Origin: Alicyclobacillus sp.
GTDB taxonomy: Bacteria; Bacillota; Bacilli; Alicyclobacillales; Alicyclobacillaceae
Assembly: GCA_023511295.1 (NCBI GenBank)
Contig: JAIMBT010000004.1
Location: forward strand, 1-64,000
Reading direction: 5' to 3'
DNA length: 64,000 nucleotides
Under the pieces are notes generated by a model. It made no database searches and was not told the origin of the DNA. It saw only the letters and a program-made list of their open reading frames with translations. The first letter of the stretch is position 1, and each line of letters starts with the position of its first letter. This document shows positions 20,017 through 58,568 of the stretch, piece after piece. A program made the translations under genes and the position numbers.

Positions 20017-20703
20017 TCACGCATCGCGTCCCGGCTCCCCCACCAAGCGCCCCGGTAACACCAGCGCAGGTCCCGACGCGTGGACCAGGAGCGGCGCCAA
20101 TCGGTCCAGCACCGGGTCCAGCAGGGAGTGCGGGACCGCCGCTTCGACGGACACAGGCGCGTGTTCCGAGAAGCGGAAAGCGTTCGCCTTGTGCAAAACG
20201 TGTTCCGCGCCGAACCCCTCCAATGCGCGGTTCACCGTCACCCACAGGACATTCGCGTCCTGTAGCGCGCGTACGATGGCGTGGTAGAGCGGATTGCTTT
20301 CGAATTCGTCTTCTTCCTTCATGTAGATCTTCAGGATTGCGTCGCCCATCCCCCGTCGTTCTCCTCCGTGTGCCAATTCTTTGACATCGTAGACATCTTC
20401 AATGACGCAGGCCGTCCCGTGCGCCGGTGTCACGACCTCAGCCGCCCGGTCAAGGATGGCCGGCATTTGACGCTGGTCCGCGAAGACCTCCAAAATGACC
20501 GGAAGCTCGTCAGAAATGTATTCGGACGCCATACGCTGCATGCGCCCGTCCGGGCCGATGCCTTCAATCCCACGAAACACAGTCACACCCGGCGCTCCCG
20601 CCCTCCACAAATCCGAAACAACCTGCTCATACACCGGTTTGCCCAACAGCGCAACCCGTTGCCCTTCGTGCAGAAAAATTTTTACCAAACTGCCCCGAAC
20701 CAA
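20017..20703 (-). CDS. tandem DUF190 (PII-like) protein, ehr cluster
   Basis: The 228-aa product holds two DUF190 domains in tandem. The first runs LVKIFLHEGQRV..GKPVYEQVVSDLWRAGAPGVTVFRGIEGIGPDGRMQ, the second LKIYMKEEDEFESNPLYHAIVRALQDANVLWVTVNRALEGFG; each ends with a VFADQRQMPAILDRAAEVV-type helix. The family is structurally PII-like and of unknown biochemical function. I chose the TTG at 20703 because GGGGAGGTGACAGG precedes it; the open frame to 20811 lacks a ribosome binding site. It is the last gene of the minus-strand Ehr cluster, 211 bases after the NuoL-like gene, and is paralogous to the two DUF190 genes at 28.8-30.0 kb. Confidence 0.85.
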   Translation of the reverse strand: MVRGSLVKIFLHEGQRVALLGKPVYEQVVSDLWRAGAPGVTVFRGIEGIGPDGRMQRMASEYISDELPVILEVFADQRQMPAILDRAAEVVTPAHGTACVIEDVYDVKELAHGGERRGMGDAILKIYMKEEDEFESNPLYHAIVRALQDANVLWVTVNRALEGFGAEHVLHKANAFRFSEHAPVSVEAAVPHSLLDPVLDRLAPLLVHASGPALVLPGRLVGEPGRDA

Positions 20704-20914
20704 CCTGTCACCTCCCCTTTGGTGGAACCCGATGCCGCCCAAGGAATGTGAAACAAGGGTAGGGTTTCCGTCCCAAACGGCGAACATGTCCAAAAGCCGC
20801 TCCCAGCCCATCCTGTGGACGGAACCGATCTCGGCACCGGTCAGCCCCAGTGCAGCGGTTGTGCGACTCGGCAGTCTTCCATGGGTCGCTGCCTCCCCCC
20901 TTTCGTGACTGGCG

Positions 20915-23074
20915 TCAGTACAGGATGGCCCACGCGAGGAGGCAGACGGCGCCTGCCAGAATCGTCAACAGGTATCCCCACAGCTGGCCGTGCTGCCAAC
21001 GGCGAATGGCGGAAATCCCGCGACGCATCTGACGCACCACCGGCCGCCACGGCTCTGCCGACAACCACAGCGAGATGGCGCGGCGCACCACGAGGCGGCG
21101 TGGAACCTCTGGAACCCCCGCCGTCCATTGTCGGTCGATGCGGTATCTCAACAAACCTGCCCACAGCATGCGGTACGGGTTTGCGTACGCGGAACTGGTG
21201 TACTGCGACTGCGCGGCGCGGTGCTCACGGCCGCCGAGCCACGCCGGGACCACGCGTGTGCGATACGCCCGCCTGCGCGGGAGCCAAATCAACAACAGCC
21301 CGAAGGCAGCCCACACGATGAACCACCCCAACACGTACGTGGGACCGATGGTTGCGACGAAGTCCGCGGGCTGAATCACCAACCCGGGTGCGGGCAGAAA
21401 CGGCGGCACGGCGCCGCCCAAGCTGACGATGGTCGCGTTCACATGCGGTCCGCCGGCGACGTTCGGTACGATGTCGGTGAGCGACTCCGGATGGCGTACC
21501 ACCGCAGTGATGACGTGCTCGTACGCTGACATGGAGAAGGTTGGAAACCAACCGTACAGCGCGCACAGGACCGTGAGGATGCCGATGCCAAATCCGGTCA
21601 GACGTCCTGTCTGAGAAGAGGTCAGGCGAGTGACCGACCACCGTCGCTGGCCGGTCATCGCGAAAGCGAACAGCTTGAGGAAGGTGGTCATCGCGAGCGC
21701 TGAGCCGGCCGCCGCGACCATGCCGCCGAGTGTCACCACGACCTGCAAGGCGGGCGTCAGGCTGCGGTACACCTGCAGCATCCCCTGCAACGTCATCCAT
21801 TCCGATACAAATCCACTAAACGGCGCGACCGCGGCAAGCGTCAGACAGGAAAACAAGAAACTCACTCCCAGCGCGGGCATCTCGCCAAGCAGTCCGCCGA
21901 GGTGGTCCAAGTCCGACGTCCCCGCTCGGCGGCTCACCTCCCCCGCCGTGAGGAAGGCCAACGCCTTGGCCATCCCGTGCGAGACCATCTGGACAAGCAG
22001 TCCCATCATCGCAAGGTTTGCGTCTGCCGCGTTGTGGCGGTCGGCGAACGAGATGGCGAGTCCGATGCTGATGACCATCCATCCGACGTTCTCCACGCTG
22101 CTGTACGCCAACAGCCTTCGCATGCGATTTTCGATGACCGCGAACAGCGCGCCCGCAAACACCGCGGCGACCCCCAGCCACAGCACGGCGATGCCGATGA
22201 CAAGGGTCGGCGGTGAAACGGCGAGCACCCGCAGGACGCCGAAGAGGCCCAGGTTCAGCAGCCCGCCCGCCAGGATGGCGTTCAGGTGCGGCGGCGCGGC
22301 GTCGTACGCCTCCGGCATCCACGCCTGCAGCGGTAAGATGCCGCTCTTTGCACCGAAGCCCATGAGAGCGAGCCCAAACACGGTGTTTCGCAGGTCCGGT
22401 GACGTCGTCGACAGGTGCGCCTGAAGTACCGTGAAGGCAAACGGATGACCGGACAACCCGGTCGAGGAAACGTCCTGCAGCGGCGCGGACAATAGAAACG
22501 CGAGGACCAGCAGCAAGAACCCGAGTTCACTGACGACGACGGTGACATACGCGGCCCTGCGGCTTGGCCTGTGGTGGTGTTGCGGAAGGAGGTAGCCGTA
22601 GGCGCACAGCGACATCGCTTCCCACGCGATGAGAAACGGGACAGCGTCCGTCGCCGTCACGAGAAAACTCGTAAACAGAAATTGCAGGGCCGTGACCATC
22701 GCCATCGTTCGGCCGGTCCCCGCGCGGCGATGCCGTGCGAGGTCTGCGGCCACGCAGGCGGCCGTCGCGCCGATCACGCCGAGCAGCAAAAGCAGCAGAC
22801 TGGAGAGCGGATCAACCCGGAAGGTCCAGCTGCCGAATACGGGGATGGCTGGCAAGGTCCACAAGGTCACGGACGTGTGCAGAGCGAGTCCGGACACGCC
22901 GACGGCGGCCTGCAGCAAGCAACCCACGCCCACCCAGAGCCAGGGCCACCGGCCCGCTGGTCGGTGGGCAGCAGCACCATCACCCCCGCGGCCCGGCGCC
23001 CACACGGCGGAGACGCCGCTCCATGCGATGGACAGAAGAAACGGGCCCAGCGACACCCAGAACCACTCAGCCAT
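20915..23074 (-). CDS. HyfB/NuoL-like proton-pumping membrane subunit of the Ehr complex
   Basis: The 719-aa protein has about fifteen membrane segments and the antiporter-like features of NuoL/HyfB: the key Glu in LIAWEAMSLCAYG, the Lys in LMGFGAKSGILPLQAWMPEAY, the RRLLAYSSVENVGWM stretch and the His/Lys pair in MVSHGMAKALAFLTAG. It lacks the NuoL lateral helix but has a long C-terminal arginine-rich cytoplasmic part and a last membrane segment. It should form a proton (or sodium) channel in the membrane arm. Its start overlaps the stop of the iron-sulfur subunit by 8 bases. Confidence 0.88.
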   Translation of the reverse strand: MAEWFWVSLGPFLLSIAWSGVSAVWAPGRGGDGAAAHRPAGRWPWLWVGVGCLLQAAVGVSGLALHTSVTLWTLPAIPVFGSWTFRVDPLSSLLLLLLGVIGATAACVAADLARHRRAGTGRTMAMVTALQFLFTSFLVTATDAVPFLIAWEAMSLCAYGYLLPQHHHRPSRRAAYVTVVVSELGFLLLVLAFLLSAPLQDVSSTGLSGHPFAFTVLQAHLSTTSPDLRNTVFGLALMGFGAKSGILPLQAWMPEAYDAAPPHLNAILAGGLLNLGLFGVLRVLAVSPPTLVIGIAVLWLGVAAVFAGALFAVIENRMRRLLAYSSVENVGWMVISIGLAISFADRHNAADANLAMMGLLVQMVSHGMAKALAFLTAGEVSRRAGTSDLDHLGGLLGEMPALGVSFLFSCLTLAAVAPFSGFVSEWMTLQGMLQVYRSLTPALQVVVTLGGMVAAAGSALAMTTFLKLFAFAMTGQRRWSVTRLTSSQTGRLTGFGIGILTVLCALYGWFPTFSMSAYEHVITAVVRHPESLTDIVPNVAGGPHVNATIVSLGGAVPPFLPAPGLVIQPADFVATIGPTYVLGWFIVWAAFGLLLIWLPRRRAYRTRVVPAWLGGREHRAAQSQYTSSAYANPYRMLWAGLLRYRIDRQWTAGVPEVPRRLVVRRAISLWLSAEPWRPVVRQMRRGISAIRRWQHGQLWGYLLTILAGAVCLLAWAILY

Positions 23075-23864
23075 GCGTCGCCACCTTCTCTCTCCGAGTG
23101 GCCGCCTCCAGCAACCCGCGCAGGATGGCGTAGGGCGTCGGGGGACACCCGGGGACCATCACGTCCACTGGAATCACTTGGTCGAGCGGGCCCACAAACT
23201 GCGCACTCTCCCGGAAGACACCGCCGTGCAGGGAACACACGCCCGCCGCTACGACGAGGCGCGGACGTGGCATCGCCTCGTAGGTCGCGACCAGCACTTC
23301 GCGCATCGCAGGGGTCAGCGCCCCTGTCACCAGCAGGACGTCCGCGTGCCGGGGCGAGGCCGTAAAGAAGATGCCGAGCCGATGAAAGTTGTAGTACGGA
23401 TTGGATAGGGCGAGCACCTCCGATTCGCAGGCGTTGCAGGAACCCACATCGATGTGGCGGACGTGCAGACTCCTGCGGAAGACGGACTGCAGGTGACCCG
23501 CCGCCGCAGCGTCCAACTCGTCCCAGTCCCTCTGCGCGACGTCCTCCGCGCGTGCGGTGTAGCGCATCGCTTGGTCAATCCGGTCGGACCAGGCGAAGAC
23601 ACCTTCGGGGCACGCCTCGATACAGCGCCCACAGCCGATGCACGCCGCCGCGTCCACTTCCGGAAGCAGATCGGTCCGAAACCGGATGGCGCCGGTTGGA
23701 CAGATCTGCGCACAGTCACAGGCCGCTGCCAAACAGGGGCGCGCACCGCCCGCTGCGACGGTGTGCCATGCGCGGCAGCCATCCTCGTCGCGAAACGTTG
23801 GGTGCGGATATCGGGTGGTCACGCGGCCGCTGCCAACACCTGCTCTGAGCCAGTTTGCCAACAT
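23067..23864 (-). CDS. ferredoxin + NuoB-like iron-sulfur subunit of the Ehr complex (fusion)
   Basis: The 265-aa product joins a two-cluster ferredoxin half to a NuoB/HyfI half. The ferredoxin cysteines are Cys44, 49, 51, 55 (CLAAACDCAQICP, an unusual first spacing) and Cys75, 78, 82, 86 (CIGCGRCIEACP); the NuoB-like half has Cys143, 146 (GSCNACESEV), Cys210 (AGVCSLHGG) and Cys240 (PGCPPTP), the N2-type cluster ligands. In hydrogenase-4 and complex I these are two proteins (HyfH/NuoI and HyfI/NuoB). The ATG at 23864 follows GGGAGGG at good spacing; upstream frame is not protein-like. It passes electrons to the cofactor-free large subunit and onwards. Confidence 0.88.
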   Translation of the reverse strand: MLANWLRAGVGSGRVTTRYPHPTFRDEDGCRAWHTVAAGGARPCLAAACDCAQICPTGAIRFRTDLLPEVDAAACIGCGRCIEACPEGVFAWSDRIDQAMRYTARAEDVAQRDWDELDAAAAGHLQSVFRRSLHVRHIDVGSCNACESEVLALSNPYYNFHRLGIFFTASPRHADVLLVTGALTPAMREVLVATYEAMPRPRLVVAAGVCSLHGGVFRESAQFVGPLDQVIPVDVMVPGCPPTPYAILRGLLEAATRREKVATHG

Positions 23865-23950: not shown

Positions 23951-25456
23951 TCACCGGTCGGTGCCGGCGTACGACAGGCCGAAGCTCGCGTCCATCACGG
24001 GGAAGTCGGTCTGGATGTTGCCGTTTGCTGTGGCGAGCCCAAACACCGGCCAAATCCAGCTGGATGCCGAACGGACCCCCCAAAATCCGATGCGCCCGCG
24101 CTCGACGCAGACGACGTGGCTGATGCGCCCCCTCGGTCCCTCGACCGTCCCAACGCCCCAACCGCGCGCTTCGTCCGCGTTCACCTCGGGCGGCGTCCAT
24201 CGGTCCGTCGGCCGAGTGGACGCGAGTTGAGACACCAGCCACCGAATCATGTCTACGGACACGCGCCACTCTTCGACGCGAACCAGAAAGCGGTCCAGGG
24301 CGTCGCCCTGCGCGCGCGGCGCGACCGCGACGGAAAACCCGGCGTGCGCCGTCCAGGGCGCGTACGCCAAGCGGGCGTCCGTGCGGAAGCCGCAAGCGCG
24401 GGCGGTCGGACCGACCAATCCGTACGCAGGTACCCACGTCCGCTCGACGGTTCCGGTTCCCACGAGCCGGTCCACAAACGTCGGTGTGCGCCGCAACAGT
24501 GACACAAACTGCTGCAGCCGTGCGTCGACCCTTGCCAACGCTTCGAGGAGCCACGTCCGCACGTCCGGCCAGTCCACGGGAGCAAAGCGGAATGGGGAGA
24601 CGGCCGTCCGGAGGTAGCGAGAGCCCGTCAACCGCGCCGCCATCCGAAGGCAGTCCTCCTTCACGCGAGTCAGTTGCGCATGCGCGACTGTCATCCCCGC
24701 GGCCGAGGCCAACTGACCGATGTCGTGCGCGTGGTTGTAGAGCCGCTCCAACTCCATGAACAACTGCCGCTCGTACCGCAGCGGTTCCGGTGCCATCCAG
24801 CCGCACGCCTGTTCGACGGCCGACGCGTAGGCAGCGGTGTGCGCCGCTGTGGTGACACCCGAGATGCGTTCGGCGAGCAGCGTGACGTCATCCATCGAAC
24901 GGCCGACGGCGAGTCGCTCGACATCGCGGTGCTTGTAGTACAGCTGCGGCTGCATGTGCATAATCTGTTCGCCGATGGTGTCAAACAGGAAGAACCCGGA
25001 TTCCGTCACGTCCGCGCGGACCGGTCCGAGTGGCAACGGAAACGCCCCCGCGCCGGTAACGCGGCTTTGCAAGGTGTGCCGTTCCGGGTGCAGCAACGGA
25101 TGTGGGTCCGGATGACCAGCGGGGAGAACACCGAGCCGATCTGCCACCTCCAGCTCCGGCCAAAGGAGGGCCGGCCACTCGCCTGCGAGGGAGCGCCACG
25201 AACGCACGTCGAGGGGGGTCGTGTATAGACTGGATTGCCCCGTTGCCGTGTTCCCGATGGAGGCCATCAGATTCGGCGTGCCCTCCGATTCCCACACGCC
25301 GAAGAAGAGCAGTTGTTCGTCGGACGCGGGACCCGCCGAGGCCGGGTTGCCCCGAGCGGCCAAGACGCGTCGCGCAAACGTCGCAAAATCAAGGTGCAAC
25401 AGGGACGGATCGAGCGGATCGCTCGTCTCGCGCTGCATCACGCGCATGCAAAGCAC
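23951..25456 (-). CDS. NuoCD/HyfG-like large subunit without Ni-Fe ligands (Ehr type)
   Basis: The 501-aa protein fuses a NuoC-like N-terminus (about 1-115) to a NuoD/hydrogenase-large-subunit domain. The alignment anchor TLLAERISGVTTAAHTAAY (residues 193-211) corresponds to ERICGVCxxAH of group 4 hydrogenases, but both cysteines are replaced (Ser199, Thr202). The C-terminal DPCxxC is replaced by MDASFGLSYAGTDR and the protein stops there, with no cleaved C-terminal extension. Neither nickel nor hydrogen chemistry is therefore expected; this is the hallmark of Ehr complexes and of complex I NuoD. The GTG at 25456 lies six bases after AAGGA and nine after the stop of the preceding gene. Confidence 0.87.
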   Translation of the reverse strand: MLCMRVMQRETSDPLDPSLLHLDFATFARRVLAARGNPASAGPASDEQLLFFGVWESEGTPNLMASIGNTATGQSSLYTTPLDVRSWRSLAGEWPALLWPELEVADRLGVLPAGHPDPHPLLHPERHTLQSRVTGAGAFPLPLGPVRADVTESGFFLFDTIGEQIMHMQPQLYYKHRDVERLAVGRSMDDVTLLAERISGVTTAAHTAAYASAVEQACGWMAPEPLRYERQLFMELERLYNHAHDIGQLASAAGMTVAHAQLTRVKEDCLRMAARLTGSRYLRTAVSPFRFAPVDWPDVRTWLLEALARVDARLQQFVSLLRRTPTFVDRLVGTGTVERTWVPAYGLVGPTARACGFRTDARLAYAPWTAHAGFSVAVAPRAQGDALDRFLVRVEEWRVSVDMIRWLVSQLASTRPTDRWTPPEVNADEARGWGVGTVEGPRGRISHVVCVERGRIGFWGVRSASSWIWPVFGLATANGNIQTDFPVMDASFGLSYAGTDR

Positions 25457-25465
25457 ACCCTTTCC

Positions 25466-26935
25466 TTACCCATTCGACATGACGTGGGCGAATGCCAGTC
25501 CCACAAACGGCAGGGCGGTTCCGAACGCAAAGGTGAGCAGCAGGTGCAGCGCCGTGGGCCCTACGATACCTGCAGATTCTCCGACCGGTGCTGCACTCGC
25601 CGTCACTTGCCGCGACGGCTTGCCGTACCCAATCTGGAGCGCTCGCTGCAGAAAACTCGCGAAGAGCACCAGCAAGAAGACCAGCAGAACCACCGCGAGC
25701 GCCGGAGTGCCGTGGCGGAGGATGGCGAGGACGACGAGGAACTCGCTGATGAACAGTCCGAATGGCGGTGCACCGGCGATGGCGAGCATGCCGAGCATCC
25801 AGGCGCGGCCGGTCTTCGGCAGCACGGCGGTCACACCGCGCATGGTCCGCATATCGGTTGACCCCGAGAGGTGCAACAGCTCCCCCGAATGGTAGAACAG
25901 CATCGACTTGATGATGGCGTGGTTGACCATCTGCAGATAGCCCGCGATGGCGCCAATCGGCCCAAAGGCAAACCCGATGGCGACCATGCCGAGGTTCTCC
26001 GCGCTGGAATATGCGAGCAGACGCTTGACGTCGGTCTGGGCCACCGTCATCAGGGCGCTCATTCCGACCGTGAGGAAGCCGAGCGTACCAAGCGCCGCGT
26101 CGGCGAAGCCGCCTTGCCCGCCGGCGTGCAGGACTTGCTGCAGCCGGAGGATGCCGTACATCGCACAGTTGAGCTTGATGCCGCTGAGCATCGCGGAGAC
26201 CGGCGACGGCGCCTGACTGTGCGCGTCCGGCAGCCAAAAGTTGAACGGCACCAGCCCGGCCTTCGCCCCGAATCCAGCCAGGATAAGGGCGAACGACACG
26301 CGAAGCGCGGTGGCCGGAACGTGCCGTGCCACACGTGCAAGGTCCGTCCAAGTGGCGCCCATCAGCGGAAGGTCCACAGAACCTGCGAGGGTCACCAGAC
26401 CGAACAGCGCCAATAACCCGCCGGATATCATGATGACCAGGTATTTCCACGCAGCTTCATGGGTGAGCCTGGTCTGATGCCAATCCACGAGTAAAACCGA
26501 CGAGAGTGCAGTGAGTTCAATCGCTCCCCAGGTGAAAAAGACGTTTTGCACAATCGTCGCGGCGACCAGACTCGCGTAGAACACGAGCAACAGCGTGAAG
26601 TACCCACGTTCCTGGGCCAAGTTCCGGGGACGTTCCGCGGGCGCGTGCGGACCCGTACGTCCGCGGATGTACCGCACCGAGTACACGCACGCGGTGAACC
26701 CCACCACCAGCGTGATGGCCGTCACGACCGCACTCAGCCCATCCGCTGACCACCACGGCGAGTCTGAGACGCTGGGCCCGTGTGCGAAACCATTCACCCC
26801 CACGTTCACACCCATCAGGGCGATGTTGAGCGCCGTGACCACGGGCGGGACAAACGGGCACCGCGACGCCGGTAGGAGGTACATCGCGCCGATGCCGAGC
26901 AGAGGAACGACCAGGAGCCATCCGACGACGTCCAT
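25466..26935 (-). CDS. HyfF/NuoN-M-like proton-pumping subunit of the Ehr complex
   Basis: The 489-aa product has about fourteen membrane segments with antiporter-like residues in TWGAIELTALSSVLLVDWH (Glu), LAGFGAKAGLVPFNFWLPDAHSQAPSPVSAMLSG (Lys, and the family signature), VKRLLAYSSAENLG and MVNHAIIKSMLFYHSGE. It should be the second ion-translocating subunit of the membrane arm. The ATG at 26935 lies eight bases after GAGGGGG, which is better than the GTG at 26944 that overlaps the preceding stop. It sits between HyfE-like and NuoCD-like genes with only a 5-base and 9-base spacing, so all are one operon. Confidence 0.87.
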   Translation of the reverse strand: MDVVGWLLVVPLLGIGAMYLLPASRCPFVPPVVTALNIALMGVNVGVNGFAHGPSVSDSPWWSADGLSAVVTAITLVVGFTACVYSVRYIRGRTGPHAPAERPRNLAQERGYFTLLLVFYASLVAATIVQNVFFTWGAIELTALSSVLLVDWHQTRLTHEAAWKYLVIMISGGLLALFGLVTLAGSVDLPLMGATWTDLARVARHVPATALRVSFALILAGFGAKAGLVPFNFWLPDAHSQAPSPVSAMLSGIKLNCAMYGILRLQQVLHAGGQGGFADAALGTLGFLTVGMSALMTVAQTDVKRLLAYSSAENLGMVAIGFAFGPIGAIAGYLQMVNHAIIKSMLFYHSGELLHLSGSTDMRTMRGVTAVLPKTGRAWMLGMLAIAGAPPFGLFISEFLVVLAILRHGTPALAVVLLVFLLVLFASFLQRALQIGYGKPSRQVTASAAPVGESAGIVGPTALHLLLTFAFGTALPFVGLAFAHVMSNG

Positions 26936-26940
26936 CCCCT

Positions 26941-27594
26941 TCACCCCCTCAACTCGCGCAAATCGTGCAACCGCGTGGAACCAGACGCCTTCAGCCGGAC
27001 CAACAGGACCACAGACAGCATCGTCGCCAGGGCGATGTCGACGAAGATCAGGTCATCCACGCCGACCGGGATGCGGCTGAGGATGGCTGCGACGGCGAGA
27101 TCGATCCCGTTCTCCGCACTGAGGAGGCCAAACATCTGCTGCCCGGCCTGGTGCGTGAGCGCCACGCCGGCGAGCGCGGCCAACAGCGTTCCGAGCGCAA
27201 AGCCAAACGGCACGGCAAAACGGCCAGCCCAAACCGTCGCGACACCGGCTGAAACCGCACCGAGCACGCAGAACGCCATCAGGAGGAATGTCGGTGCTGC
27301 AACAAAACGGTTCTCACGGGCGTCCATCAGCACAGGGGGCAGCTTCCACCGGATGATGATGGGAATCAGGCCGCCGCGGATGACGACCAGCCCAGCGAAG
27401 GCCGCCCACATGTCGGCATCCCCAGTGTGCAGCGCCTTGGCGCCGTACAGCACCACGATACACGCTGTCTGCAGCAGGTAGCCCAACTGGCACGTGCGCA
27501 GCTCCCGCGCCACGCCGATGAACAGTGCGAGCAGAAACACCAACAACCCGAGCCATGTCCAGAGCAACTTCCACCACACCTCCACTCCCGGCAT
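26941..27594 (-). CDS. HyfE/NuoK-like membrane subunit of the Ehr complex
   Basis: The 217-aa product has about six membrane segments. It is longer than NuoK (about 100 aa) and fits HyfE, which is an extended NuoK: the C-terminal part holds HQAGQQMFGLLSAENGIDLAVAAIL, with the conserved Glu in SAENG that takes part in proton transfer. The ATG at 27594 lacks a ribosome binding site; a TTG nine codons in (27567) follows GGAGG and may be the real start. It lies 34 bases after the NuoH-like gene. Confidence 0.8.
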   Translation of the reverse strand: MPGVEVWWKLLWTWLGLLVFLLALFIGVARELRTCQLGYLLQTACIVVLYGAKALHTGDADMWAAFAGLVVIRGGLIPIIIRWKLPPVLMDARENRFVAAPTFLLMAFCVLGAVSAGVATVWAGRFAVPFGFALGTLLAALAGVALTHQAGQQMFGLLSAENGIDLAVAAILSRIPVGVDDLIFVDIALATMLSVVLLVRLKASGSTRLHDLRELRG

Positions 27595-27628: not shown

Positions 27629-28609
27629 CTACACGCCGATGGCGACCAGCATCACCGCGACCAAGGCCGCGGCCGTCGACGCCGCCATGAACTCGGCAAT
27701 CCGGAGCAGCCGCAACTTGCCGACAGACGACTCCACCCACACAATGGCAGCCAAGAGCGCCAGGAACTTCACGAACACCCTTACAGCGCTCGCGAGCAGC
27801 GCCAGCACCGAAACTCCGCGTGCGAGGCCCCAAGGTGACACGATGACGTTGAGCAATATCACCCCGAGGACGACCAACTTCATACAGCCACCCCATTCAA
27901 TCAACGCCAGGTGCGGCCCCGAGTAGTCGTAGGTACGGTTATGGTCAATCATGGAAAACTCGCGGTGGGAAGACGGGTTATCGACGGGAATCCGCCCAGT
28001 TTCCGCCAGTAGAATGGCGAAAAACGCCGCGATGAGCAGCACGTGTGCGGGAGACCATCCGAGGCGTTGCATCGCGCCCCCGACGATGAACGGAATGGTC
28101 GCGTGGGCAGCGAAGCTGACGGCAAACAGGACGACCATCAGCGCGGGTTCGACACACATCGAGACAAAGCGGGCTCGCGTGCTGCCGATGCCGCCGTACG
28201 GACTGGCGCCCGCCGTCGCGCCAACCAAGAGCGCGTAGGTGCCGAGGCCGAGGATGAATCCGCCCGCCATCATGTCTCCCGCAAACGCCATGAACAAGGG
28301 ATACGACGTGAGGACCGGGATCAACATCGCGACCACCAAGGGAGCGGCGAAGTACAGATACGGGGCCACCCGGTACATCCGTCCAGCCCCGTCGGGTCGC
28401 ACCGTCTCCTTGTGAAACCACTTGCGCAGATCGCGGTATGTCTGGAAGATGCTCGGTCCGCGCTTGCCTTGAACAAACTCCTTCCAACGATTGAGAATGC
28501 CTTTCACGAGCGGAGAAACGAGCAGGACGAATGCGAGCTGCATCCCCTGCATCCACACGGCCTGACCCACCGTCACAGCACTCCCTCCCTCACGCGCACG
28601 CGCATTCAT
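27629..28609 (-). CDS. HyfC/NuoH-like membrane subunit of the Ehr complex
   Basis: The 326-aa product has eight or so membrane segments and the NuoH/HyfC pattern: KRGPSIFQTYRDLRKWFHKE (the first cytoplasmic loop, GPxxxQxxxDLxKLxxKE), GIGSTRARFVSMCVEPAL, and AETGRIPVDNPSSHREFSMIDHNRTYDYSGPHLALIEW (the conserved loop that contacts the hydrophilic arm). It anchors the peripheral arm to the membrane arm. The ATG at 28609 follows GGAGGTCACG. It is the first gene of the complex operon and lies about 48 bases after the intrinsic terminator of a fluoride riboswitch (28657-28745). Confidence 0.88.
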   Translation of the reverse strand: MNARAREGGSAVTVGQAVWMQGMQLAFVLLVSPLVKGILNRWKEFVQGKRGPSIFQTYRDLRKWFHKETVRPDGAGRMYRVAPYLYFAAPLVVAMLIPVLTSYPLFMAFAGDMMAGGFILGLGTYALLVGATAGASPYGGIGSTRARFVSMCVEPALMVVLFAVSFAAHATIPFIVGGAMQRLGWSPAHVLLIAAFFAILLAETGRIPVDNPSSHREFSMIDHNRTYDYSGPHLALIEWGGCMKLVVLGVILLNVIVSPWGLARGVSVLALLASAVRVFVKFLALLAAIVWVESSVGKLRLLRIAEFMAASTAAALVAVMLVAIGV

Positions 28610-28656
28610 CGTGACCTCCGGACGAAACGCAGGCTTGGCCGGCCGGTTGCACCGGC

Positions 28657-28745
28657 AAAAGACAGGAAAATGGCTCCTACCCAGCGGAATCGCTGGATAG
28701 GAGCCATCAGCCGGACCGGCGTTTCGGGCGAGCTCCATCGCCACC
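28657..28745 (-). ncRNA. fluoride (crcB-motif) riboswitch with intrinsic terminator, ahead of ehr genes
   Basis: Read on the minus strand the element matches the fluoride aptamer: P1 GGCG/CGCC (28739-28742 with 28727-28730) enclosing AUGGAGCU, then a CGAAAC linker, P2 GCCGG-UC-CGGC (28710-28720), then UGAUGGCUCC whose GGCUCC (28700-28705) can pair with GGAGC (28732-28736) as the pseudoknot. The same GGCUCC is the 5' arm of a perfect 17-bp terminator stem (28670-28686 with 28691-28707) followed by TTTTCCTGTCTTTT. Fluoride binding should block the terminator and switch on the NuoH-like gene and the genes after it. Confidence 0.9.
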
Positions 28746-28808
28746 ATTGGACGCTTTGTCGCACCATCATGATATGGCACCGATTGAGAAATAGAACTGC
28801 TTGTTGTC

Positions 28809-29492
28809 CTACGGCTGTACACCCGACGTGCGCGGATGCCACACCGCGACCGGGAGGATGACAGCCGGTCCGGAGACGCGCCGTAAGCGGGGGCGGACCT
28901 CGTCCAGGACCGACATCGCATCTGCACGGGACCACATCGCTTCCAAAATCCACACGTCGTCCCTGTTGGAGAACAAACGGGGTTTGCGCACCGCCCGATG
29001 ACTGCCAAATCCCCTGCGCGCGCGCGTGAGCATCGGCGGCGCCACACTGGGCCCGCGCAGTGCACCGAGCCACTCCGAGAGCGAAAGCGCCACATCGGGT
29101 TGACCGAGATAGACCTTGCAGAAGACGTGATCTGACATCTCCAGAACGTCTTGGAGCTCGTGGTCTGTGCAGACCCGCACGTCCACCGCCGGCGAAGTGA
29201 ACAGCCTGCATCTCGTCGACCATTTGGCATCTATCGACTGGAGGAACGTCCCAACCCAGTTTGTGGACGCGAACACCTGGATACAGACCGGCAGGTTCTC
29301 GTTCGCGTACTCCGACGCGACATCCTGAATCGTCCCCCTCCGGTCGAGCCCGTAGACCCCGTGAACCACCGTGCACCCTGGGGCGCCACGGTGCAACAGT
29401 TCCTGCACCACCCAGTCGCTCACCAGCGGCCCGAACGGGTGCAGCCGTTCGCCATCGTAGGTCAAGACCTCCAGATAGGTTCCGCCGGACAT
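28809..29492 (-). CDS. tandem DUF190 (PII-like) protein with degenerate second domain
   Basis: The 227-aa product starts MSGGTYLEVLTYDGERLHPFGPLVSDWVVQELLHRGAPGCTVVHGVYGLDRRGTIQ, a clear DUF190 domain, continues through VCIQVFASTNWVGTFLQSID, and then has a second, more diverged copy (HVFCKVYLGQPDVALSLSEWLGAL...SRADAMSVLDEVRPRL). The ATG at 29492 follows GGGAGG with 8 bases spacing; the frame opens three codons earlier at a GTG. It lies between the two fluoride riboswitches: 64 bases before the second, 153 bases after the single-domain DUF190 gene. Family certain, function unknown; a regulatory role for the complex is inferred. Confidence 0.75.
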   Translation of the reverse strand: MSGGTYLEVLTYDGERLHPFGPLVSDWVVQELLHRGAPGCTVVHGVYGLDRRGTIQDVASEYANENLPVCIQVFASTNWVGTFLQSIDAKWSTRCRLFTSPAVDVRVCTDHELQDVLEMSDHVFCKVYLGQPDVALSLSEWLGALRGPSVAPPMLTRARRGFGSHRAVRKPRLFSNRDDVWILEAMWSRADAMSVLDEVRPRLRRVSGPAVILPVAVWHPRTSGVQP

Positions 29493-29645
29493 CCGGCTCA
29501 CCTCCCATCCAACAGGGAAGCCCGAGGCGTGAATCCGGTGGCGCGTTCGTGTCGGAGGCAGCCTCGCCGACTAGAGATCATGTTTATGCTGTCTTCCGCC
29601 AAACATGCCTGCGAACCCAGTGGAACCCTGCACCCGTCGGACGCT

Positions 29646-29966
29646 TTACTCGGTCCGGACGTACGCCCCTTGGAGGACCAGCGCAGGACGGGATGCACCC
29701 TCCAACATTGCGGAAAGTTCCTTCCAGGTCGATTCGACGTCTTCCACTGGGCCGCAGATCTCGACGACCAGCGGGTACGCCGGCCGCACCCGTCTGCCTC
29801 CGCTGGCGAAGGCCGCGCCCACCGCATCTCCTGCAACCCGCGATACCTGCACCCACAACGCCCCCTCGCGCTTCTTGCAGGCGCGGACGATGGCCTGATA
29901 GAGCGGGACGCGTCGATATCGCTCGCGCTCCCCCACGACAATCCGAACCGTCAACCCTGGCTCCAT
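29646..29966 (-). CDS. single-domain DUF190 (PII-like) protein
   Basis: The 106-aa product (MEPGLTVRIVVGERERYRRVPLYQAIVRACKKREGALWVQVSRVAGDAVG...) is one DUF190 domain: a beta strand with VRIVVGE, the PLYQAIVRACKKREGA helix, a second strand, and a C-terminal helix VEDVESTWKELSAML with the LVLQGAYV strand. The ATG at 29966 follows GAGAGGTGCGC. It is the first gene after the first fluoride riboswitch (30001-30090), which ends 35 bases upstream. It probably forms an oligomer with, or competes with, the double-domain paralogues; that part is inference. Confidence 0.8.
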   Translation of the reverse strand: MEPGLTVRIVVGERERYRRVPLYQAIVRACKKREGALWVQVSRVAGDAVGAAFASGGRRVRPAYPLVVEICGPVEDVESTWKELSAMLEGASRPALVLQGAYVRTE

Positions 29967-30000
29967 GCGCACCTCTCCCATGCCAGGAACTTCGATGGGC

Positions 30001-30090
30001 CTTGAAATGAAATCGGCTCCTGCGACAGCGCCGGGCGCTATCACAGGAGCCATGAGCCCCAACGGGCGTTTGCGGTGAGCCCCATCACCG
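30001..30090 (-). ncRNA. fluoride (crcB-motif) riboswitch with intrinsic terminator, ahead of DUF190 genes
   Basis: On the minus strand P1 GGUG/CACC (30086-30089 with 30074-30077) encloses AUGGGGCU, then GCAAAC, P2 GCCC-GUU-GGGGC (30056-30067), then UCAUGGCUCC. GGCUCC (30046-30051) can pair with GGGGCU (30078-30083) as the pseudoknot, and it is also the 5' arm of an 18-bp terminator stem (30015-30032 with 30034-30051, with G-U pairs) followed by ATTTCATTTC. The layout is the same as the element at 28657-28745, so both should be fluoride-ON switches. A possible promoter is TTGACG (30129-30134) with TCGGAT (30106-30111), 17 bases apart. Confidence 0.88.
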
Positions 30091-30201
30091 ATTCACGGAC
30101 ATCGCATCCGACGTTGCTGTCGACGCGGCGTCAATCCTGGCGCAACCTGAATATACGCGCCCAAATCCCCCATCGTGCACGTCCCGACCAGCGCGGCGCG
30201 G

Positions 30202-30402
30202 TTAAAAGCAGCCGTTCTGGCAGCTCGAGGTATGCCCCAACCAGGCATCGAGCGCTAAGTTGGCCACGCCGCCGCAGAGCGGGCACACAAAGGTCGTCTC
30301 CGCCACGGTGTCGTCGTCCAGCGCCAGCAAGGCCTGCTGTTCAGCCTCGGCAATCCGGCGCATCGCCTCTCGGTCTAACACCACCATCGCCTCCTCGTTC
30401 AT
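30202..30402 (-). CDS. small zinc-ribbon-like protein (about 66 aa)
   Basis: The product is MNEEAMVVLDREAMRRIAEAEQQ... followed by ETTFVCPLCGG and a C-terminal HTSSCQNGCF. The CPLC pair plus the C-terminal Cys and His residues look like a small metal-binding site. A GAGGAGG lies inside the N-terminal coding region, so the real start may be the ATG at 30387 or the GTG at 30381. It lies upstream of the first fluoride riboswitch in the same direction, divergent from the oxidoreductase gene. Not recognised further. Confidence 0.55.
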   Translation of the reverse strand: MNEEAMVVLDREAMRRIAEAEQQALLALDDDTVAETTFVCPLCGGVANLALDAWLGHTSSCQNGCF

Positions 30403-30601
30403 TCCCTCGGAGTATCGCCGGTTTCTGGTGGCGGCATGCACACCGGCGATGTCATCCGATGCCAATGCCGCAGGCCCATGATGAGCCGTCCCGTAGTAGA
30501 ATGGTACGGAAGGGGTCTGCGCCACAGAACGTCAGCAGTGCCGGCTGCCGCGCGGCAGTTTCCGGACCGATGCCCCACCTCCCGGAGAGAAGGTGACGGC
30601 C

Positions 30602-31735
30602 GTGCCGCGACGTTGGTTCCCGCATGCCAAGTGGCCGAAGTTCCTTGTCGGACTCCACGCATACACCATTGTGTCGTTCGTGTTGTTGGTGATGAGCGGG
30701 ATGGCGCTGTACCTGCCCGCGGTTCACGCACCGCTCATCCCATACCTGCGCCTGCTCTACGACGCGCACATCGTAATCGGTCTGGTGTTCGCCGGAACGC
30801 TGCTCGCGCCGCTGTTGCGCCGCTTGCTGCCAGAGGGCAAGACCATCCTCCGGCCCGATTGGCTGATACCGACGGTGTTCGGCGCTGCGATTGTCGTCAC
30901 GGGCATCCTCCTGTGGGGCGTGCGCGTCTTTCCCACCGTCTGGCGGGCACCCGCGTTCTGGTGGCACGGCGCACTCACGACCGTGCTCAGCGCCTGGCTC
31001 GTCACACATGCGTTTCTGAAGGCCCTCGGCGTGCGCTTTCCGCGCGACACCTGGGCCGGCGGACGCATACAGCCCGAGCGCCGCGCCTTCCTGCGCTGGC
31101 TGGCGGGCGGTACCGCGGTCGCGGCAGTCGTCACCGTCCTAGATCCGCTGCGCATCCTGCGCGCCCTCGCCCGGCCGACCGGTCAGGCGAGCGCAGCTGC
31201 CACCCCATCCAACCAACTTCCGGATTTTCCTGAGTACTACACAGTCGTCCGTCCGCCGTACCCCGTGATGAAGCTCACCGATTACCGTCTGACCGTCGAC
31301 GGGTCCGTCGCCCATCCAGCCGTCCTGACCTGGCAGGACATCCAACAGCTCACGTTCGCGACGGAGACCGTGGATTTCCACTGCGTCACGGGTTGGAGTG
31401 TACCGAACGTGCGTTGGCACGGCTTCACCATTCAAAGCCTGGTGAACCGCGTACAACCGCAAGGTCATGTGAAGTACGTGCATTTTTACTCGTTCGATGG
31501 GGCGTATTCGGAGTGCCTCCAACTCGCCGAGGCGCTGGACCCCTCCGTGCTCCTCGCGACGACCATCAACAACCAACCCTTGCCGGTCGTACAAGGTTTC
31601 CCGGTGCGCTTGGTCGTCCCGAAGATGTACGGCTACAAGTCCATCAAATGGGTGAATCGCGTGGTGTTCAGCGAACGGCCGATTGAAGGGTTCTGGGAAC
31701 AGCGCGGATACCCGACAGAGGCATACTGGTCTTAG
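30602..31735 (+). CDS. cytochrome b-like membrane domain fused to sulfite-oxidase/MsrP-type molybdopterin domain
   Basis: The N-terminal 150 residues form four or five membrane segments with paired histidines (LVGLHAYTIV, LYDAHIVIGLV, FWWHGALTT, WLVTHAFLKAL) that suggest a b-type heme protein like MsrQ/cytochrome b561. A RRAFLRWLAGG segment resembling a Tat motif (about residue 156) leads into a molybdopterin domain with DFHCVTGWSVPNVRWHG, the Cys that binds molybdenum, and GFPVRLVVPKMYGYKSIKWV. In most bacteria such parts are two proteins (MsrP and MsrQ). The GTG at 30602 has AAGGTG six bases upstream; GTG 30593 is an alternative. A P450 gene follows 30 bases later. Confidence 0.82.
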   Translation: MPRRWFPHAKWPKFLVGLHAYTIVSFVLLVMSGMALYLPAVHAPLIPYLRLLYDAHIVIGLVFAGTLLAPLLRRLLPEGKTILRPDWLIPTVFGAAIVVTGILLWGVRVFPTVWRAPAFWWHGALTTVLSAWLVTHAFLKALGVRFPRDTWAGGRIQPERRAFLRWLAGGTAVAAVVTVLDPLRILRALARPTGQASAAATPSNQLPDFPEYYTVVRPPYPVMKLTDYRLTVDGSVAHPAVLTWQDIQQLTFATETVDFHCVTGWSVPNVRWHGFTIQSLVNRVQPQGHVKYVHFYSFDGAYSECLQLAEALDPSVLLATTINNQPLPVVQGFPVRLVVPKMYGYKSIKWVNRVVFSERPIEGFWEQRGYPTEAYWS

Positions 31736-57499: not shown

Positions 57500-57625
57500 A
57501 AACCACAACAGTCCGAATCGCGTAAGCGAGCGGGGGATGCATCACTTTGGGGTGAATCGCAGCCGAGCTGCCTAGGGAATCCTTCTCCCGAACCCGTCAA
57601 CTAACCTCGCAGGACTTGAAGGAGC
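57500..57625 (+). ncRNA. c-di-AMP (ydaO/yuaA) riboswitch
   Basis: The leader contains the conserved ydaO blocks in order: CCGAATCGCGTAAGCGAGCGGGGGA, CTTTGGGGTGAATCGC, a CCTAGGGAATCCTTCTCCCGAACCCGTCAACTAACCTCGCAGG stretch and the 3' end running into GAAGGAG. The ribosome binding site (57618-57624) is at the end of the aptamer and CCTTCT at 57581-57586 is complementary to it, so c-di-AMP binding could act on translation. The riboswitch commonly controls cell-wall hydrolases and ion transporters in Firmicutes. Confidence 0.9.
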
Positions 57626-57632
57626 TGCCAGA

Positions 57633-58568
57633 TTGAAAAAGAAGACCCTGATGTCGCTGTGCGCCAGTGCGGTGTGCGCAGGCGCGGCCCTGTTCACGGC
57701 CCCAGCAGCCGCATTCGCAGATGTCAGTGCCTCCGACATGACGATGAAAGGCATTGTCTTCAACCAGGACGTAGTTTCGAAACCGTATGGATTCGTCCAG
57801 AACGGAACCACCTACCTCCCCATCTGGTACCTCATGCAGGCCCTTCACCAGTTGCAGGTCAACAGTCACTGGGCCAACCAGAGTTGGACCTTGGTCACCA
57901 GCGGATCGACAACACCGGACCTCAGCAACGTGAATCCCGGCACGGGCACCACGTCCATCTACCTGAACGGTGAACTGGTCCAGAAGGTCGACACGGTGGT
58001 CGCAACGGACCCGTCGTCCGGTAAGCCCACCACCTACATGCCTGCGTGGTACATCATGCAACTCTTGAATCGCCTCCAGGTTCACTCCAAGTGGAACGGC
58101 ACCGTTTGGCAGATGTACACCGGCACCACACCGCCCGCCATCGGCAACCTCGACATTCAGCCCAACACGCGTCCCCCCGCAGCGCGCAGCGCCCCCAGCC
58201 TAGGCGAACAGATTGTGCAGTACGCGGAACAGTTCATCGGGACACCGTACCAGTACGGTGGTACGTCCGCGAACGGGTTTGACTGCTCCGGTTTCGTGCA
58301 GGCTGTGTTTGCGCACTTCGGTAAGACGCTGCCCCGAACGGCGGCGGAGCAGGCGCAGGTGGGCAGTGCCGTCTCCGAACAAGACCTGAACCCCGGGGAC
58401 CTGGTCTTCTTCGATACCGAAGGCAGCCCGTTCTCTCACGTCGGCATCTACGTCGGCAACGGGGAATTCATCTCGGCGACCACCTCGCGCGGCGTGCGCA
58501 TCTGCAAGTTGGAAGACTCGAGCTACTGGGGTCCGCGGTTCACAAAGGCCACCGACCCAGGTGTATGA
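57633..58568 (+). CDS. secreted NlpC/P60 (C40) cell-wall hydrolase with two N-terminal repeat domains
   Basis: The 311-aa product has a signal peptide (KKKTLMSLCASAVCAGAALFTAPAAAFA), two copies of a GTTYLPIWYLMQALHQLQVNSHWANQSW / PTTYMPAWYIMQLLNRLQVHSKWNGTVW stalk domain (about 55-90 and 130-165), and a C-terminal NlpC/P60 domain with GGTSANGFDCSGFVQAVFAHFG (catalytic Cys about 222), SHVGIYVGNGEFI (His) and a final polar residue. It should cleave peptide cross-links in peptidoglycan outside the cell. It starts with TTG at 57633, eight bases after AAGGAG, and is under the c-di-AMP riboswitch. Confidence 0.92.
   Translation: MKKKTLMSLCASAVCAGAALFTAPAAAFADVSASDMTMKGIVFNQDVVSKPYGFVQNGTTYLPIWYLMQALHQLQVNSHWANQSWTLVTSGSTTPDLSNVNPGTGTTSIYLNGELVQKVDTVVATDPSSGKPTTYMPAWYIMQLLNRLQVHSKWNGTVWQMYTGTTPPAIGNLDIQPNTRPPAARSAPSLGEQIVQYAEQFIGTPYQYGGTSANGFDCSGFVQAVFAHFGKTLPRTAAEQAQVGSAVSEQDLNPGDLVFFDTEGSPFSHVGIYVGNGEFISATTSRGVRICKLEDSSYWGPRFTKATDPGV

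Follow-up and report, generated by a model that had tools for sequence, protein, structure and literature searches.

It was found that a gene cluster of Alicyclobacillus sp. carries two fluoride riboswitches, RS1 and RS2, and that RS2 lies upstream of an operon for a membrane complex whose large subunit has lost all four cysteines of the NiFe site. The cluster lies in the window, i.e. the whole 64,000-nucleotide stretch of DNA that was analysed. RS1 precedes two DUF190 (PII-like) genes, and RS2 precedes a six-gene operon resembling complex I and hydrogenase 4, with a third DUF190 gene last. The pairing of a fluoride switch with such an operon is conserved in one clade of Ehr-like complexes. 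In my estimate, there is about an even chance (a probability of roughly 0.5) that the fluoride-switched Ehr complex is a redox-driven proton (or sodium) pump, with the DUF190 proteins as regulators.

Two fluoride riboswitches in one gene cluster

The gathering-level Rfam matches in the window are RS1 (30037..30098, minus strand; RF01734, 42.2 bits, E 2.5e-8), RS2 (28691..28751, minus strand; RF01734, 47.4 bits, E 5e-10), and one c-di-AMP riboswitch, with no others. The c-di-AMP riboswitch (57501-57630, plus strand; RF00379, 88.4 bits) lies immediately upstream of an NlpC/P60-domain gene (57633-58568). The initial annotation had claimed two fluoride aptamers and had proposed a covariance-model search with Rfam as a check. 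This search gave a significant match for each element, above the curated gathering cutoff of RF01734 (34 bits), and the positions that the initial annotation gave span the aptamer core and the terminator of both.

Each aptamer overlaps a terminator hairpin whose 5′ arm is the 3′ pseudoknot strand of the aptamer, so that the GGCUCCU strand opens both hairpins. The RS1 hairpin (30014..30052, minus strand) has 18 pairs, and the RS2 hairpin (28657..28707, minus strand) is followed by a T-rich tail. The hairpin segments fold at -34.8 kcal/mol (RS1, z -8.5) and -32.8 kcal/mol (RS2, z -8.7), and in both cases 0/200 shuffles equal the value. Judged by this architecture, the hairpins would be expression platforms that compete with the pseudoknot, in agreement with the terminator competition claimed before, and RS1 and RS2 are probably ON switches induced by fluoride. 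A consensus terminator scan flagged the RS1 hairpin and not the RS2 hairpin, and its one site compares with a shuffle mean of 1.4. Thus, the terminator argument rests on the strength of the hairpins and on their conservation across species. The window elements share the aptamer consensus and the terminator overlap with the known terminator-type ON switches of RF01734, from which they differ by their serial placement with DUF190 genes in between and not in kind.

All genes of the cluster are on the minus strand. RS1 is followed by DUF190 gene 1 (29646..29966; PF02641, 28.4 bits using the 29981 start) and DUF190 gene 2 (28809..29501, 230 aa; PF02641, 42.5 bits; P-II, 23.5 bits, under the P-II cutoff). 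A Shine-Dalgarno-like stretch suggests 29966 (or 29981) as the start of gene 1. RS2 is followed by the genes for a NuoH/HyfC-like membrane subunit (27629..28609; PF00146, 109.9 bits), which belongs to the conserved clade, a HyfE-like membrane subunit (26941..27594; NCBIfam hydrogenase 4 membrane subunit, E-value 8e-7, under the cutoff, with no Pfam match), a HyfF-like antiporter-type subunit (25466..26944; PF00361, 156.7 bits), a NuoCD/HyfG-like large subunit without the NiFe cysteines in its ligand columns (23951..25456; PF00346, PF00374, and PF00329), a fused ferredoxin and NuoB-like subunit (23067..23864; PF01058 and Fer4), and a HyfB-like antiporter-type subunit (20915..23074; PF00361, 130.9 bits; hydrogenase 4 subunit B, 336.9 bits, under the cutoff). 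The double DUF190 gene 3 ends the operon (20017..20811; PF02641 in two stretches, 124 bits; P-II, 43.1 bits). All three DUF190 proteins are above the Pfam cutoff of 23.4 bits. The gene annotation thus agrees with the earlier claim that one switch stands before DUF190 genes and the other before a complex-I-like operon, and the latter pairing is also kept across the clade loci. Near RS1, a divergent gene (30593-31735, plus strand) encodes a molybdopterin oxidoreductase domain and has a sub-threshold cytochrome b561 match.

The switches had also been regarded as two independent control points. There are indeed two switches; their independence is unproved, as no promoter-like site was found between RS1 and RS2. 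A consensus-only scan found no sigma-70-like promoter in 28400-30700, and so both may act in series on a single transcript, with two terminators to pass. I regard this serial arrangement as having nearly an even chance: tandem fluoride aptamers (on one strand, with a gap of up to 400 nt) recur as 10 arrays in 8/59 genomes of the order, and two arrays, one triple and one double, precede the Ehr operon, whereas a non-canonical promoter, to which a consensus scan is blind, may lie upstream of RS2. The arrays are at G037:C209:33866-34170, at G020:C1:4898196-4898523, and at eight further positions. Inspected by eye, the triple array has a separate terminator for one or more of its units.

Distribution of the switch and operon pairing

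Is this pairing found in other bacteria? An aptamer lies directly upstream of the HyfC-like gene in 18/18 clade loci with upstream DNA on the contig, of which three have a divergent aptamer detected only with R1, a model built from 28 aptamers (including the two of the window and one of L088). The clade comprises Bacillota and Acidobacteriota species plus one metagenome-assembled genome (MAG) labelled Nitrospirota. Thirteen loci in twelve genomes, the source genome included, encode a large subunit closely related to that of the window (>=430 bits). Where the contig includes the start of HyfC, R1 places an aptamer directly before the HyfC-like gene (10/10 of these loci). Kept outside the 18-locus count are L080 and L081, where the contig ends before HyfC, and L078, which has a lone large-subunit gene, with an aptamer before it, and no full HyfC. 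In the order survey, the aptamer is present in 46/59 genomes.

More distant relatives were scanned as well. Eight distant homologues (L089-L096) gave no aptamer with R1 (best E 6.7). A profile search of genome contigs with the large-subunit alignment gave 73 loci. Among the 61 loci beyond the close Bacillota set, a clear aptamer was found in two, an Acidobacteria record and a Nitrospirota record, which are both clade members, and the other 59 had no aptamer match below E 0.1. When the HyfC alignment A3 was run against 347 Acidobacteriota-group genomes, four matches reached at least 477 bits and the remainder 271 bits at most; all four have the aptamer, and 31 other loci scanned in this group (L172-L176, L180-L205) have no aptamer match below E 0.5. 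Against 398 Bacillota genomes, A3 gave the match of the source genome itself, three matches of about 360 bits (G741 among them), each with an aptamer upstream, and a remainder of 267 bits at most. No aptamer match below E 0.3 was found in 16 other Bacillota loci. The best of these is a weak R1 match before the HyfC of L214 (10.5 bits, E 0.34), which Rfam does not confirm and which, by its position in the longer locus, falls in the HyfB region. L177-L179 and L211-L213 were not in the alignment that found them; L209 and L170 repeat L112, and L171 repeats L111, each being counted once.

In a tree of 75 HyfC proteins (cut at 340 residues, with L109 left out), a single branch with a support of 100/99 separates the 18 proteins with an aptamer from the 57 without, and these 57 relatives have no credible aptamer match, many having been scanned with short flanks. 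The position of the aptamers was also checked in the 347 Acidobacteriota-group genomes, using stricter filters. Among the matches listed, there are 142 aptamers and 150 HyfC-like genes, the latter down to weak matches, and 59 genomes have both. The aptamer adjoins only the HyfC genes of ranks 1-4 among the matches listed, and three other listed HyfC genes share a contig with an aptamer more than 700 kb apart. A chance association of switch and operon was rejected on the basis of the HyfC tree and this position check.

The gene order also sets the clade apart. HyfC is the first gene and HyfB the last in the clade operons (18 loci), and in the 14 loci outside the clade with both genes located HyfB directly precedes HyfC. 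Thus, an aptamer upstream of HyfB could be missed in 42 controls (L180-L205, L214-L229), which were scanned with flanks of 1.5 kb. The whole-genome aptamer search covers the region upstream of HyfB in the 26 Acidobacteriota-group controls among these; the longer loci of L214 and L215 have no aptamer match below E 0.2, and the other 14 Bacillota controls are represented by their 1.5 kb flanks. At L113, the sequence preceding HyfC is only about 115 nt long. Compared with other Ehr complexes, the window clade is separate, with a fluoride switch and with HyfC as the first gene.

Twelve of the 18 clade aptamers reach the Rfam cutoff, and three others are reported by Rfam below it (L212 at 32.7, L211 at 30.6, and L085 at 28.1 bits). 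The remaining aptamers, those of L083, L084, and L086 (one genus code), were detected with R1 only (28.9-30.5 bits), and an Rfam search of these loci did not report them (L084 twice). They deviate at positions that are otherwise constant, with GUUGG in place of GAUGG and AUAG in place of AUGG. These divergent aptamers (L083:5901-5959, L084:1903-1961, and L086:14300-14358) retain an overlapping terminator-like hairpin. Judging from these changes, it is possible that the aptamers have decayed or that their ligand has changed. A terminator-like hairpin was found for most clade loci, usually starting in the 3′ strand of the aptamer. The script search for hairpins found none at L112 and L179, a short one at L211, and none overlapping the aptamer at L213, where a ACTCCTGTCG/CGGCAGGGGT hairpin exists by eye.

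The HyfC of the Nitrospirota-labelled MAG groups weakly (80/41) with one of the Acidobacteriota group, so the phylum given for it is doubtful. A single old event, inherited with the operon, could account for the pairing, so that 18/18 does not equal 18 independent events. The retention of the pairing over such divergence suggests selection.

Exporters and DUF190 proteins

In all, four fluoride switches are present in the source assembly, which comprises 3.43 Mb in 42 contigs. The two outside the cluster lie before a Na+/H+ exchanger gene and before a gene whose product has a sub-threshold TerC match. The latter (L014:4647-5285, minus strand, on C42 of the genome) may be an extra fluoride-response gene. 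According to PMC11139923, Na+/H+ antiporters are the next commonest target class after exporters.

The initial annotation had pointed out that no CrcB gene is in the window, and had taken the complex to be the target instead of an exporter. The former is correct: the genome has four CrcB matches, which form two pairs, and every one is on a contig other than that of the window, with no RF01734 match in 5.5-6 kb around them. The latter does not hold, since with two CrcB pairs elsewhere in the genome the complex is an addition to export and not a substitute for it. Replacement of the exporter was rejected for the clade as well, CrcB being present in 17/20 clade genomes. The other three (G059, G060, and G268) have no CrcB match, for which incompleteness of the assemblies or a CLC-F exporter may be the cause.

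The DUF190 family has four matches in three genes of the source genome, all inside the window cluster. The relatives of these proteins in the PDB are TM0021 (1o51) and PH1503 (2dcl) of DUF190/COG1993, and there are weak matches to P-II proteins. In addition to the Pfam match and the relatedness by sequence, there is a difference from TM0021 and PH1503: several DUF190 copies flank the Ehr operon of the window, and one of them is double-domain. DUF190 is present in 12/20 clade genomes. In the eight genomes of the window's own family code, 11 of 19 DUF190 genes have an aptamer, CrcB, or Ehr at a distance of 3 kb or less, and 13 of 36 CrcB matches have an aptamer no more than 500 nt away. A strict partnership of DUF190 with the fluoride switch was thus rejected, and there is only a tendency. 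Four DUF190 genes outside the 19-gene count (G070, G081, G572, and G783) each lie within 150 nt of CrcB. At two loci, a second fluoride aptamer lies 3′ of the Ehr operon and has the same orientation (L232:2380-2441 and L206:2645-2706, both minus strand). In G070, the region still further downstream also has CrcB and a DUF190 gene.

The genus Alicyclobacillus is acidophilic, and one clade host, Alicyclobacillus sp. ALC3, comes from acid mine drainage sediment. A plasmid of ALC3 (NZ_CP066785.1, 20500-40500; L078/L239) has a fluoride island with seven aptamer matches, CrcB, and two DUF190 genes, together with the lone NiFe-less large subunit, a sigma factor, and a gene annotated as a manganese efflux pump.

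The membrane complex and its possible role

In 21/21 large subunits of the clade, the window protein included, none of the four NiFe-ligand columns (0/4) has a cysteine. ERISG.. stands in place of ERICGVC and SFGLSYAG in place of SFELCYAC, and four of the 21 have a cysteine in a neighbouring column. Among the hydrogenase-like controls, the C-terminal cysteine pair is present in 10/10 and the N-terminal pair in 8/10. The best solved relatives of the window large subunit are those of E. coli FHL (7z0s) and Pyrococcus MBH (6cfw), and an alignment to E. coli HycE, which has the NiFe cysteines, confirmed their loss in the window protein. Since all four cysteines are gone, these complexes are not hydrogenases or formate hydrogenlyases. 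The loss is not unique to the clade: in a survey of 49 Ehr-like ends, in which the C-terminal ends were used alone because the N-terminal motif pattern matched almost nothing, only three have a CxxC, and the ends without it include many aptamer-free loci. Thus, the loss says "Ehr", and the fluoride switch marks one Ehr clade.

Parts of the proton and electron paths are retained. The antiporter-type subunits of the window have the GFGAK(A/S)G motif, whose lysine I take to be the TM7 lysine of such subunits. The NuoB-like part has the hydrogenase-type CxxC of the proximal cluster, a spacing that PMC7684303 gives for MBH and cytosolic NiFe hydrogenases. The motif patterns for CxxC and GFGAK were too narrow and missed the majority of the more distant clade members. 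The source genome encodes a separate canonical NuoD, whose Asp-Tyr aligns with Ser-Gly in the window large subunit, and the His and Tyr residues of NuoD presumably form the quinone site. No NADH-module family matched among the operon genes scanned. Thus, the window complex does not show the quinone-site His/Tyr pair or, among the operon genes scanned, the NADH module genes that mark complex I (Nuo). No gene for an electron donor or acceptor was found in the operon. With group 4-type subunits, lost NiFe ligands, and antiporter-like subunits, the complex fits the Ehr type, which PMC6349859 defines as group 4 hydrogenase-like subunits without NiFe ligands and for which it gives redox-coupled ion translocation as suspected. 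The respiratory-type target proposed by the initial annotation therefore stands as a complex-I-like operon, and its type is amended to Ehr without NiFe ligands.

What else could such a complex do? One alternative, which I consider unlikely, is a fluoride-tolerant redox enzyme with a reductase role (e.g. on a sulfur compound, like MBS), the pumping being secondary. Pyrococcus MBS (6u8y) is a relative by sequence, and it resembles the window complex in its reduced NiFe site and its antiporter modules; according to PMC7684303, two of its four NiFe cysteines are missing and its chemistry takes place at the proximal cluster. However, MBS retains the other two cysteines and has an altered proximal-cluster motif, whereas the window complex has 0/4 and a CxxC. 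It is improbable that the complex itself moves HF or F-, as a redox- or proton-driven fluoride exporter: the coupling to fluoride switches at the level of the clade and the lack of a CrcB match in G059, G060, and G268 would fit, but those three are assemblies of unstated completeness, CrcB is found in the rest of the clade genomes, and no F- binding element was identified in the complex. The published label would make the complex an ordinary formate hydrogenlyase, or a group 4 hydrogenase, that fluoride induces to provide a metabolic by-pass. This reading was rejected as very improbable, since the NiFe columns of all 21 large subunits are devoid of the cysteines that the controls have and no formate dehydrogenase domain is present among the locus genes scanned, even though hydrogenase 4 and FHL are the NCBIfam and PDB neighbours and "formate hydrogen lyase" is printed as a target of the crcB-motif RNA.

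This label has a history. PMC2864571 (2010) lists formate hydrogen lyase among the genes found downstream of the crcB motif, and PMC11139923 repeats it as a crcB-motif target; thus, the link between the RNA and "formate hydrogen lyase" is itself not new. These published loci probably have the same kind of gene neighbourhood as the window, and the label does not fit a clade whose large subunit is without NiFe ligands. The label is misleading for the target genes of the clade. As stated in PMC7266159, misannotation hindered the search for the riboswitch ligand. In the open-licence literature, I found no link between fluoride and Ehr, between the fluoride riboswitch and hydrogenase, or between DUF190 and fluoride, which may be in print elsewhere.

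The preferred reading is the redox-driven proton (or sodium) pump under fluoride control. Intracellular fluoride would cause both ON switches to release transcription terminators; release at RS1 would allow the expression of the DUF190 (PII-like) genes, and release at RS2 that of the membrane complex. The complex, taking electrons from a donor and passing them to an acceptor, would restore the proton-motive force and the cytoplasmic pH as HF leaks in and F- exits through the CrcB channels, and so the pump would offset what HF entry together with F- exit costs in protons. PMC11139923 links HF entry to acidification. In the fluoride response, the DUF190 proteins may sense nucleotides and regulate membrane proteins that move ions. 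The co-regulation of a Na+/H+ exchanger, the acid-site host, and the retained parts of the proton and electron paths fit with a pump, from which I infer the pumping. A more tentative view, with the odds somewhat against it, is that the NiFe-less clade is dedicated to the fluoride response as a switched, redox-powered ion pump (possibly moving HF/F-) that is tuned by DUF190 proteins and is the misnamed "formate hydrogenlyase". If this is true, a long-listed "formate hydrogenlyase" of the fluoride regulon would be a NiFe-less pump under the wrong name.

The function of Ehr complexes has mostly been guessed from their subunits, and a fluoride switch before one Ehr clade provides a physiological handle. 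An ion-sensing RNA has been retained before this clade in at least two phyla, and the finding questions the "formate hydrogen lyase" label in the fluoride-regulon literature. These results suggest that, at low pH, bacteria combine their fluoride exporters with machinery for rebuilding the proton-motive force. The switch and the Ehr complex are also paired in other bacterial groups, which suggests a component of fluoride defence that has received little attention.
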